Shown here: positions 50,288-52,933 of the stretch, piece by piece | How the letters are laid out: the number at the start of each line of letters is the position of its first letter | Position numbering within the stretch: the first letter of the stretch is position 1 | Assembly: GCF_003264855.1 (NCBI RefSeq) | Contig: NZ_NFZS01000004.1 | Location: forward strand, 310,001 to 374,000 | DNA length: 64,000 nucleotides | Direction: 5' to 3' | From: Dyella jiangningensis | GTDB lineage: Bacteria > Pseudomonadota > Gammaproteobacteria > Xanthomonadales > Rhodanobacteraceae | Made by a program: the position numbers and the translations under genes | The notes under the pieces: generated by a model | Database searches by the model: none | What the model saw: the letters and a program-made list of their open reading frames with translations, nothing else | Told to the model about the DNA's origin: nothing

Positions 50288-51667
50288 ATGACCGGAAGCA
50301 AGCGCATCTACGCTCTCGACACCAACGTCCTGCTGCACGATCCGACCTCGCTGTTCCGCTTCGAGGAACACGACATCTTCATACCCATGACAGTGCTGGA
50401 GGAACTGGACGAAAAGAAGAAAGGCGCTTCGGAAGTCTCGCGCAACGGCCGCCAGGTCAGTCGTTTCCTCAACGAGTTGATCGTACGCGGCAACGGCCAC
50501 GGCATCAGCAACGGGCTTGAGCTGATCAGTCCCGAAGGCGTCAACCTCAAGCGCGGCAAGGGCGTGGGCCGGCTGTACTTCCAGCAGCGCACGACCAACG
50601 GCCACGGCAAGGCGGACAACCTGATCCTGTCGGCGGTGATCGAGCTGCGCGACCAGAATCCGGAACGTTCGGTGGTGCTGGTCACCAAGGACATCAACCT
50701 GCGCATCAAGGCCAAGATCTACGGTATCGATGCGGAGGATTACGAGAACGATCGCGCGCTCGACGATTTCACCCTGCTCTACACGGGCTCGTCCGAACTC
50801 AGCGAAGACTTCTGGGACCACCACCCGGAGGTACAGTCGTGGAACGAGCGCGGCCGCACCTTCTACAAACTCGACCGCCGCGAAGACGAAGACTGGTATC
50901 CCAACCAGTGCCTGTTTCTGCCCGGCGACAACAGCGTGGAACTGCGCGTGCTGCACGTGGACGACAGCAAGGCCACGCTGGTGTTGCTGGACGACCACAG
51001 CCACGCGAACCACGCCGTATGGGGCATCGCCGCACGCAATCGCGAGCAGAATTTCGCGCTCAACGTGCTGATGGATCCGGACGTCGACTTCGTCACCCTG
51101 CTCGGCACCGCCGGCACCGGCAAGACGCTGCTGGCGCTCGCCGCCGGCCTCGCGCAAGTGATGGACCAGCAGCGTTATCGCGAGATCATCATGACGCGCG
51201 CGACCGTGCCGGTCGGCGAGGACATCGGCTTCCTGCCAGGCACCGAAGAAGAGAAGATGACGCCGTGGATGGGCGCACTCACCGACAACCTCGAAGTGCT
51301 CGCCAATCCCGAGGAAGGCGGCAGCTGGGGACGCCAGGCCACCAACGACCTGCTCGCTTCGCGCATCAAGATCCGCTCGCTCAACTTCATGCGGGGACGC
51401 ACCTTCCTCTCGCGCTACCTGATCATCGACGAAGCGCAGAACCTCACGCCCAAGCAGATGAAGACGCTGATCACCCGCGCGGGCCCCGGCACCAAGATCG
51501 TGTGCCTGGGCAACGTGGAGCAGATCGACACGCCGTATCTCACGGAAACGACGTCGGGCCTGACGTACGCGGTGGATCGCTTCAAGCACTGGGAGCACTC
51601 GGCGCACATCACGCTGCGTCGCGGTGAGCGTTCGCGCCTGGCGGATTTCGCGTCGGAGGCCTTGTAG
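50288..51667 (+). CDS. PIN-PhoH family ATPase/ribonuclease
   Basis: 459-residue protein with an N-terminal PIN nuclease domain (YALDTNVLLHDP, about residues 7-18, carrying acidic active-site residues) and a C-terminal PhoH-type P-loop ATPase with GTAGTGKTLLALAAGL and YLIIDEAQNL. PIN-PhoH proteins act as RNA helicase-ribonucleases in other bacteria; the pairing in this organism is by homology. The ATG at 50288 is chosen because it starts MTGSKRIYALDTN; GAGG lies about 12 nt upstream. Follows bcp. Confidence 0.9.
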   Translation: MTGSKRIYALDTNVLLHDPTSLFRFEEHDIFIPMTVLEELDEKKKGASEVSRNGRQVSRFLNELIVRGNGHGISNGLELISPEGVNLKRGKGVGRLYFQQRTTNGHGKADNLILSAVIELRDQNPERSVVLVTKDINLRIKAKIYGIDAEDYENDRALDDFTLLYTGSSELSEDFWDHHPEVQSWNERGRTFYKLDRREDEDWYPNQCLFLPGDNSVELRVLHVDDSKATLVLLDDHSHANHAVWGIAARNREQNFALNVLMDPDVDFVTLLGTAGTGKTLLALAAGLAQVMDQQRYREIIMTRATVPVGEDIGFLPGTEEEKMTPWMGALTDNLEVLANPEEGGSWGRQATNDLLASRIKIRSLNFMRGRTFLSRYLIIDEAQNLTPKQMKTLITRAGPGTKIVCLGNVEQIDTPYLTETTSGLTYAVDRFKHWEHSAHITLRRGERSRLADFASEAL

Positions 51668-51716: not shown

Positions 51717-52010
51717 ATGGATTGGCGACGGCCTTGCGTATACATCTTGGCGAGCGGTCGCAATGGCACGCTCTACGTCGGTGTCACCAGCGATCTGGTC
51801 AAGCGTGTCTGGCAGCACCGTAACGAGGTGACCAAGGGCTTCACCTCGCAGCATCACGTCTACAACCTCGTATGGTATGAGCTGCATGAGACCATGGAAT
51901 CAGCCATCCTCCGCGAAAAGCGACTCAAGGACTGGAAGCGAGTTTGGAAGTTGCGGCTGATTGAAGGTGAAAATCCCGAATGGGTCGACCTTTACCCAAC
52001 GCTCACGTAA
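51717..52010 (+). CDS. Small GIY-YIG nuclease-family protein
   Basis: 97-residue stand-alone GIY-YIG domain. The signature is VYILASGRNGTLYVGVTSDLVKR, where VYI and YVG match the GIY and YIG elements and Arg follows in VKRVWQH. The expected catalytic glutamate lies in AILREKRLKDW. AAAGGAG precedes the ATG. No target or partner is known; such small proteins are related to UPF0213/SLX1-like nucleases. Its TAA stop is part of the left arm of a 33-bp perfect inverted repeat (52006-52096), so gene and repeat are physically joined. Confidence 0.88.
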   Translation: MDWRRPCVYILASGRNGTLYVGVTSDLVKRVWQHRNEVTKGFTSQHHVYNLVWYELHETMESAILREKRLKDWKRVWKLRLIEGENPEWVDLYPTLT

Positions 52011-52096
52011 CTGGATTCCGGCCTGCGCCGGAATGACGATCAAGAGCAAGGCTTCGTACTTGCCGTCATTCCGGCGCAGGCCGGAATCCAGTTACG
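52006..52096. repeat. Family-B palindromic element at the GIY-YIG gene end
   Basis: Perfect 33-bp inverted repeat: left arm 52006-52038, right arm 52064-52096, spacer 25 nt. Each arm has its own hairpin (TTCCGGC, 4 nt, GCCGGAA). The left arm includes the GIY-YIG stop codon. Structure is that of a REP/BIME-like pair. Confidence 0.92.
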
Positions 52097-52147: not shown

Positions 52148-52933
52148 ATGCCCCCCGCCACGCCCCCCATCGCCCTCACTATCGCCGGCTCCGATTCCGG
52201 AGGTGGTGCAGGCATCCAGGCCGACCTCAAGACCTTCCATGCGCGAGAAGTGCATGGACTGTCGGTGATCGCGGCGATCACTTCGCAAAACACCCGCGGC
52301 GTCACCGCGGTGCACACGGTGCCGCTGAAACACATCCGCAGCCAGATCGACGCGGTGTTCGATGACTTTCCCATCGGCGCGGTGAAGACCGGCATGCTCG
52401 GCAGCGCCTCCGTCACCCGACTGGTCGCAAAAGAGATGAGCACGCGCCAGCCGGCCTGGCTGGTGGTGGATCCGGTGATGATTTCCACCAGCGGCGCGCG
52501 CCTGCTCGATGAGGACGCCGTGGAAGCGATGGTCGAAGAGCTGATTCCGCTCGCGGATATCCTCACGCCCAACCTGCCCGAGGCCGAAGCCCTGCTCGGG
52601 CGCAAGCTGCGCAGCCCCAAGGATTACGACAAGGCCGGCGAGCTGCTGCTCGAACTCGGCGCGACGGCCGTGCTGCTCAAGGGTGGCCACGCCAGCGAAC
52701 GGGAAGTGGTGGATCGTTACTACGACGCCAAGGGCACCATGGAATTGCGCCACCCGCGCCTGGCGATCGAAGGCCACGGCACGGGCTGCACCCTGGCCTC
52801 CGCCATCGCCGCGGAGCTGGCAAGGGGACACGCGCCACGCTCCGCCGTGCGGCGTGCCGTGGGCTATGTCCATCGCGCACTGGCTCGCAGCTACCGTCCG
52901 GGCGGCGGGCCCGTGCATGTACTTGGGCATTGA
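52148..52933 (+). CDS. thiD: Hydroxymethylpyrimidine/phosphomethylpyrimidine kinase
   Basis: 261-residue ribokinase-fold kinase of thiamine synthesis, phosphorylating HMP and HMP-P. The signature SDSGGGAGIQADLKTF and the C-terminal GTGCTLASAIAAELARG (anion hole and catalytic aspartate region; here GHGTGCT) are present. Normal length. It is 52 bp after the family-B repeat. Confidence 0.95.
   Translation: MPPATPPIALTIAGSDSGGGAGIQADLKTFHAREVHGLSVIAAITSQNTRGVTAVHTVPLKHIRSQIDAVFDDFPIGAVKTGMLGSASVTRLVAKEMSTRQPAWLVVDPVMISTSGARLLDEDAVEAMVEELIPLADILTPNLPEAEALLGRKLRSPKDYDKAGELLLELGATAVLLKGGHASEREVVDRYYDAKGTMELRHPRLAIEGHGTGCTLASAIAAELARGHAPRSAVRRAVGYVHRALARSYRPGGGPVHVLGH

Follow-up and report, generated by a model that had tools for sequence, protein, structure and literature searches.

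The window analysed here is a stretch of 64,000 nucleotides from Dyella jiangningensis (genome G000 in what follows), and in it, between a PhoH-type gene and thiD, lies a small gene for a GIY-YIG endonuclease whose stop codon falls within an inverted repeat made up of two REP sequences. The features of this locus, each with the basis of its assignment, are the following.

50288 to 51667, forward strand: PIN-PhoH (PhoH2-like) gene, the upstream neighbour and a marker of the conserved locus (profile searches, locus comparison)
51717 to 52010, forward strand: gene for the 97-residue GIY-YIG endonuclease (open reading frame, PF01541, conserved residues, AlphaFold2)
52006 to 52038, forward strand: left arm of a perfect 33-bp inverted repeat, containing the stop codon TAA at 52008 to 52010 (sequence)
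52011 to 52038, forward strand: first REP, with tail CTGG, stem ATTCCGGC/GCCGGAAT and a 4-nt loop (sequence, pattern match, fold)
52035 to 52038: tag GACG of the first REP, directed away from the gene (sequence)
52039 to 52063, no strand: spacer of the REP pair, 25 nt (sequence)
52064 to 52096, reverse strand: right arm, which is the second REP (sequence, pattern match, fold)
52064 to 52067: tag CGTC of the second REP, turned toward the first REP (sequence)
52148 to 52933, forward strand: thiD (hydroxymethylpyrimidine/phosphomethylpyrimidine kinase), the downstream neighbour and a marker of the conserved locus (profile searches, locus comparison)

The protein belongs to the GIY-YIG superfamily, matching PF01541 at E 2.6e-15 (56.9 bits, where the cut-off is 22.6). 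This is the only Pfam family that it matches, and the match spans residues 6 to 78 of the 97, such that the protein scarcely exceeds a single GIY-YIG domain; none of the NCBIfam profiles matched at E <= 0.001. The catalytic motif of GIY-YIG enzymes consists of a Tyr, a Tyr-x-Gly, an Arg, a Glu and a C-terminal Asn, and in an alignment of homologues Y9, Y20, G22, R30, E67 and N86 are invariant in 30 of 30 sequences; in other words, the catalytic residues are in place. The AlphaFold2 model of the protein has a mean pLDDT of 94. By profile and by fold alike the nearest solved structure is the UPF0213 protein 1zg2, Foldseek giving with the model only modest matches (TM 0.56 for 1zg2) and none at E <= 0.001. 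The protein has the fold of UPF0213 (PDB 1zg2, 1ywl), the UvrC N-domain and Slx1, from which the weakness of the similarity sets it apart: for 1zg2, E is 2.7e-6 in the profile search and 2.7e-3 in the fold search. UvrC and Slx1 work in repair. The window genome has only one close homologue of the gene, and phage records contain a single weak homologue, listed under two accessions.

A preliminary description of this DNA, made from its letters, had spoken of a perfect 33-bp palindrome joined to the gene. The 33-bp unit is indeed perfect, since the two arms are exact reverse complements over their whole length, but the structure is strictly an inverted repeat, with the palindrome lying inside each arm; a repeat search lengthens the arms to 46 nt at 87% identity. 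The description was right to place the stop codon inside the left arm and to give each arm a hairpin of its own. Folded separately, each arm gives a hairpin of 8 bp closed by a 4-nt loop (−8.7 and −8.9 kcal/mol, z −4.0 and −3.9). The entire 91 nt folds into one long hairpin of −49.7 kcal/mol (z −15), which none of 200 shuffles equalled. The repeat carries the marks of a CGTC-tagged REP, namely the CGTC tag, a stem of 8–9 bp starting AT, a loop of 4–5 nt and a CCA tail. At this locus the REPs lie downstream of the gene only, the upstream REP being absent.

Such REPs are dispersed in many copies. Across the genome, the strict pattern ATTCCNGCNNNNGCNGGAATGACG gives 38 matches at 36 places and a relaxed pattern gives 62 matches at 58 places (four places match on both strands), where the corresponding reversed-pattern controls give none; the numerous copies that the preliminary description, which saw one pair in the window, had named as support are therefore present. 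Some of the 30 matches whose flanks were read are pairs with their tags outward. Four REP-spacer-REP pairs, of 123–129 bp, have interiors that resemble each other weakly but consistently (in each of the six comparisons, 0 to 7 of 200 shuffles did as well). When a 123-bp element of this kind was compared by BLAST with the genus, 61 of 109 tallied matches started within 1 bp and ended within 2 bp of the tags, where the 109 are a hand tally among the matches listed, omit matches at the orthologous locus and four short matches to query positions 739–803, and include single places matched on both strands. That matches stop at the tags is partly to be expected, since a REP has its own end at that point.

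The association of gene and repeat is not confined to this locus. Among 153 testable homologue loci (of 159 located, six being dropped), a set in which some loci come from close relatives and two or more are entered twice, 65 have a hairpin with an outward tag on both sides, 54 on one side and 34 on neither; for 864 control placements along those contigs the corresponding numbers are 1, 58 and 805. In other words, at least one tagged hairpin adjoins 119 of the 153 loci versus 59 of the 864 placements, and the two-sided units have a median length of about 0.4 kb. It had been proposed in the preliminary description that homologues would be repeatedly flanked by the palindrome, and that homologues never next to it would speak against the idea; flanking by repeats of this type does indeed recur. 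The fusion of gene and repeat also recurs, with the stop codon joined to CTGGAT at 18 of 149 loci, a junction that 1 of 1383 other open frames shows (loci with the stop more than 60 nt away or near a contig end were dropped from the 159); six of the 18 belong to the window's genus, and one, L164, has no REP afterwards. Counting CGTCA/TGACG near the gene with no hairpin demanded gave both sides in 43 of 76 loci versus 41 of 715 placements, and 22 of 76 in the reversed orientation, a result weak by itself, such that hairpins were made an added requirement.

Inverted repeats across the gene give the same picture. A named set, consisting of the best 80 loci found with an alignment built from the set of genomes of the order, and partly overlapping with the latter (L061/L147, L170/L221), left 75 testable loci after five with short flanks were dropped; in 53 of these the gene lies between inverted repeat arms that match at 18/22 or better, an arrangement seen at 6 of 693 placements on those contigs (Fisher 6e-57), and 22 show no such repeat. 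Within the overlap, L170 (Dyella sp. C9) and L221 (G161, of the window's genus) encode the same protein and share both neighbours. By record title, the loci with an inverted repeat include some from Gamma-, Beta- and Deltaproteobacteria, from two Planctomycetes records and from metagenome-assembled genomes (MAGs) with the labels Elusimicrobia, Bipolaricaulota and Nitrospinae; no such repeat was present in one Anaerolineae MAG or in another, third Planctomycetes record of the named set. In the 151 genomes of the order, 30 of the 67 strong matches examined have an ATTCC/ATCCC-type REP within 300 bp, 21 of them on each side. A further 38 matches mostly lack such a REP, and in 25 of them inverted repeat arms on the two sides of the gene agree at 18/22 or better, five shuffles of each reaching at most 17/22; several of the 38 loci bear CGTCAT or TGTCAT with other stems.

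The stems are indeed diverse. Upstream arms, which by the design of the search start [CT]GTC[AG], have at different homologue loci the stems ATTCCCGC, ATTCCGGC, ATTCCTGC, ATACCGGC, ATCCCGGC, ATGCCGGA and others. Within a genome, moreover, the two arms of one gene tend to match each other. In 14 multi-copy genomes, hand-picked as having two or more strong loci each, the mean match was 19.2/22 for arms of the same gene versus 16.9/22 for arms of different genes, and scores of at least 18 were reached in 26 of 33 comparisons within a locus versus 19 of 54 between genes (p 3e-5). This is a tendency, with misfits on both sides: 7 of the 33 loci fall below 18 within the locus and the 19 cross-comparisons reach it. 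Distinct, internally matched stems for each gene copy are clearest in G105, G091 and G123, and G118 has five loci with two stem groups. The ATACCGGC stem occurs in 4 of the 151 genomes, every one of which has a strong homologue; of its 13 matches, 5 have such a homologue no more than about 250 bp away. Outside the order, a homologue from Neisseria gonorrhoeae is 65% identical over 89 residues and has CGTCATTCCCGC repeats on either side.

Gene and REPs also occur together at the level of whole genomes. If a strong homologue is one with E <= 1e-20 and a REP-rich genome one with at least five ATTCC-type matches, then 23 of the 48 genomes of the order with a strong homologue are REP-rich, versus 7 of the 103 without (p 1.6e-8); the corresponding figures are 11 of 12 versus 2 of 13 in the window's family (p 2e-4) and 12 of 36 versus 5 of 90 in the rest of the order (p 1e-4), all these p values counting related genomes as independent. 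The PF01797 transposases (RAYTs, IS200) were considered as the source of the REPs and rejected, as their presence does not follow REP number among the same 151 genomes (22/108 versus 8/43, p 1); the window genome itself has one weak PF01797 match, at E 3.1e-4. One genome of the order set, G060, has eighteen PF01797 matches in 3.5 Mb, many with equal scores, which suggests an IS200-like expansion.

The preliminary description had also held that palindromes in genomes with no GIY-YIG gene would count against the link, and this objection applies in part: 7 of the 30 REP-rich genomes of the order have no strong homologue, and in the genus G156 has 373 REP matches with the gene absent. Within the 20 genomes of the genus the median number of REP matches is 160 in the 12 with the gene and 79.5 in the 8 without, a difference that is not significant (p 0.08). 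A close homologue overlooked in those 8 genomes was considered and dismissed, since in each of them PF01541 picks up a frame as long as UvrC, a second GIY-YIG frame and nothing more. REP-laden genomes that lack the gene imply that REPs can outlive, or exist without, a resident gene.

The interval between phoH and thiD is itself variable. In the 20 genomes of the genus it contains the gene in 6 (in one of which, G162, only the phoH side shares a contig with it), a 6-bp spacer in 6 and other gene-less sequence in 7, and in 1 it is split over contigs; the gene-less sequence in G158 and G161 has REP-like hairpins. Two genomes of another genus have the gene likewise between phoH and thiD. In G157 an upstream REP stands immediately before the start codon at this locus, giving a complete unit, whereas G000 has none, and a three-way alignment of filled and empty phoH-thiD sites revealed nothing further. 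Since the upstream REP is absent and the same locus is occupied in several species, the focal copy is, as far as such comparisons indicate, probably a long-resident nuclease gene rather than an element that is now jumping. At the same locus in G154 (L103) the arms of the inverted repeat after the gene are far longer, and the stretch that is extra in one is found in the other as well, as though templated repair had held the two alike.

Evidence on movement comes from a small number of comparisons. In G118, two units that have no neighbours in common are 88% identical over 413 bp, with homology that begins at the upstream tag, apart from a mismatch in its first base, and stops where the downstream tag stops, and it seems that a unit bounded by outward tags has been copied within one genome; this is the sole clean tag-to-tag pair, and each of its members lies on a short contig, the assembly being fragmented. 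A second pair, L137 and L166 (a Pseudomonadota MAG and a Desulfobacterales MAG), is 90% identical with no common neighbour, and the homology begins 2 bp outside the upstream tag and resumes beyond the downstream (right) tag. Among the 53 homologue pairs with at least 80% identity, 39 have a common neighbour (two of the 39 being one locus entered twice), which implies that the gene moves rarely. The REP pairs also differ in presence at one site. At the orthologous site C1:1114279, compared in 20 species, 17 hold 9–21 bp between its two genes, and G000 and G154 each have a REP pair, the stems of which are different; an exact target duplication is not resolvable there because the flanks have diverged. 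Of the variable insertion sites which the preliminary description had anticipated, what stands is thus a difference in REP-pair presence at one orthologous site, between species, and the movement by the nuclease that it had in mind may lie behind such differences. At the same site G164 (L228) has a 273-bp insert with inverted repeats that is unlike the REP pair of G000. Movement at the level of strains was sought in five records of Rhizobium plasmids and set aside, the two indels found there being uninformative: one had removed sequence between direct repeats, and the other was an insert of 82 bp made up of another repeat.

Parts of this picture are already known. CGTC-tagged REPs have been surveyed in five phyla (Di Nocera et al. 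2013, PMC3733652), with the Neisseria dRS3 sequences included as CGTC-1 elements, and the repeats described here resemble them in the CGTC tag, the 8-bp stem opening AT, the 4-nt loop, the CCA tail, the dimers and the dispersed copies. That survey assigns no dedicated enzyme to CGTC REPs, transposase partners having been sought and only a few fortuitous associations found; here, by contrast, a GIY-YIG gene is a regular neighbour of the REP. The same source describes the cleavage of GTAG by RAYTs, and the layout of the present units, with tagged REP hairpins on either side of a small enzyme gene, is that of the RAYT/REPtron system, the focal gene having its REPs downstream only and 65 of the 153 homologue loci having them on both sides. 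The units differ from that system in their enzyme, a GIY-YIG nuclease with no PF01797 match instead of an HUH tyrosine transposase, and in their tag, CGTC instead of GTAG. Another parallel may be the Ssn GIY-YIG nucleases, which reportedly (Nat Commun, 2025) cut single-stranded DNA at a Neisseria repeat; they too would combine a GIY-YIG protein with a multi-copy cognate repeat, and the Neisseria gonorrhoeae homologue described above, which may be an Ssn protein, is a close one. A nuclease family with cognate repeats is, by that report, known as well. A literature search at the level of titles and abstract openings found nothing that joins GIY-YIG genes to REPs, and a tag-bounded unit with a nuclease in place of a transposase was found neither in that search nor in the portions used here of PMC12306157, PMC1564403, PMC6006769 and PMC3733652.

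The overall emerging picture is that the GIY-YIG family is the best candidate for a dedicated enzyme of CGTC REPs and, judged from sequence comparison, probably their missing partner. We consider it reasonably likely that the focal gene encodes the cognate nuclease of the CGTC REPs in its genome, that it nicks near the tag, and that host repair then spreads the tag-bounded piece. In this scheme the complete unit, of which relatives such as G157 provide examples, is CGTC-hairpin, gene, hairpin-GACG, with both tags outward; the tags would delimit what is copied, and short REP-spacer-REP pairs would be its gene-less forms. Most likely the protein would recognise tag and hairpin in single-stranded DNA and place its nick near the tag, and host repair would copy or insert the piece at a new place. 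A preference for single strands is suggested by analogy, both with the reported work on a Neisseria protein and with the cleavage of GTAG by RAYTs. GIY-YIG enzymes hydrolyse DNA and form no covalent intermediate, and therefore spreading would need other enzymes and depend on repair; the cleavage of REPs by the protein, its preference for single strands and the spread through repair are what we infer. A bolder extension, which we hold only tentatively and at somewhat worse than even chances, is that the REP-GIY-REP units of about 0.4 kb are a minimal class of bacterial mobile elements, in which tag-bounded hairpin DNA is moved by a hydrolytic nuclease in place of a transposase, host repair assisting, and that the CGTC REPs of several phyla are their gene-less passengers.

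The strongest competitor, though an improbable one in our estimate, is a host system that is not mobile, in which the REPs serve as chromosomal markers and as the sites where the nuclease cuts single-stranded DNA, whether incoming or in replication, for example in tuning natural transformation, the process on which a Neisseria protein reportedly acts. The settled habit of the gene fits such a role, in that the focal copy keeps its locus across several species and close homologues for the most part have neighbours in common, as does the Neisseria gonorrhoeae homologue, 65% identical and with repeats on both sides; it is harder to reconcile with the tag-to-tag duplicated unit in G118, with a REP-spacer-REP family whose limits are at the tags, with stems that differ between gene copies in one genome, and with the absence of the gene from 8 of the 20 genomes of the genus. 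Less probable again is a free-standing homing endonuclease that has the REP as its target and inserts between REP arms, the repeats being spread by something else. The GIY-YIG superfamily does include homing endonucleases (PMC1564403), and gene-less REP pairs could be unoccupied sites, but such REPs far outnumber gene copies (62 matches against one close homologue in the genome), REP number in the order follows the gene and not the PF01797 transposases, and arms match better within than between the gene copies of a genome.

Finally, the repeats could be only transcription terminators or mRNA-stabilising hairpins that stand beside the gene by chance. A strongly folding pair at a stop codon would suit that function, and hairpin-like sequence of other kinds occurs between phoH and thiD in several species; against this, many homologue loci have upstream hairpins too, with outward tags, and a two-sided arrangement arose at just 1 of 864 placements, such that we regard this explanation as very improbable. 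Returning to the cognate nuclease, its importance would lie in a question that the 2013 survey (PMC3733652) left open, that of which enzyme, if any, moves CGTC REPs: a regular nuclease partner makes the question testable and gives predicted pairs of enzyme and target in many genomes. It would also mean that an unrelated enzyme has arrived at an arrangement like that of REPs and RAYTs.

Several homologues adjoin repeats of other kinds. At L068, L095 (G093) and L084 (G043) the repeats are of the CGTC[AG]TC[CT]TCGGGCTTG type, with a very different stem and a similar tag, and at L086, L087 and L089 (G133, G028 and G008) they are long and of the GTCATTGCGAGGAGG type; L087 has the gene twice in tandem, 476 bp apart. 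The repeats near L212 (Sinorhizobium) and L213 (Rhizobium) include hairpins of the CCTCATCCCTGTGC and CCTCATTCCTGTGC types, the tag of which is CCTC, not CGTC. The Neisseria gonorrhoeae record that contains L211, NZ_CP119140.1, is filed as a plasmid and at 2.17 Mb is probably the chromosome.
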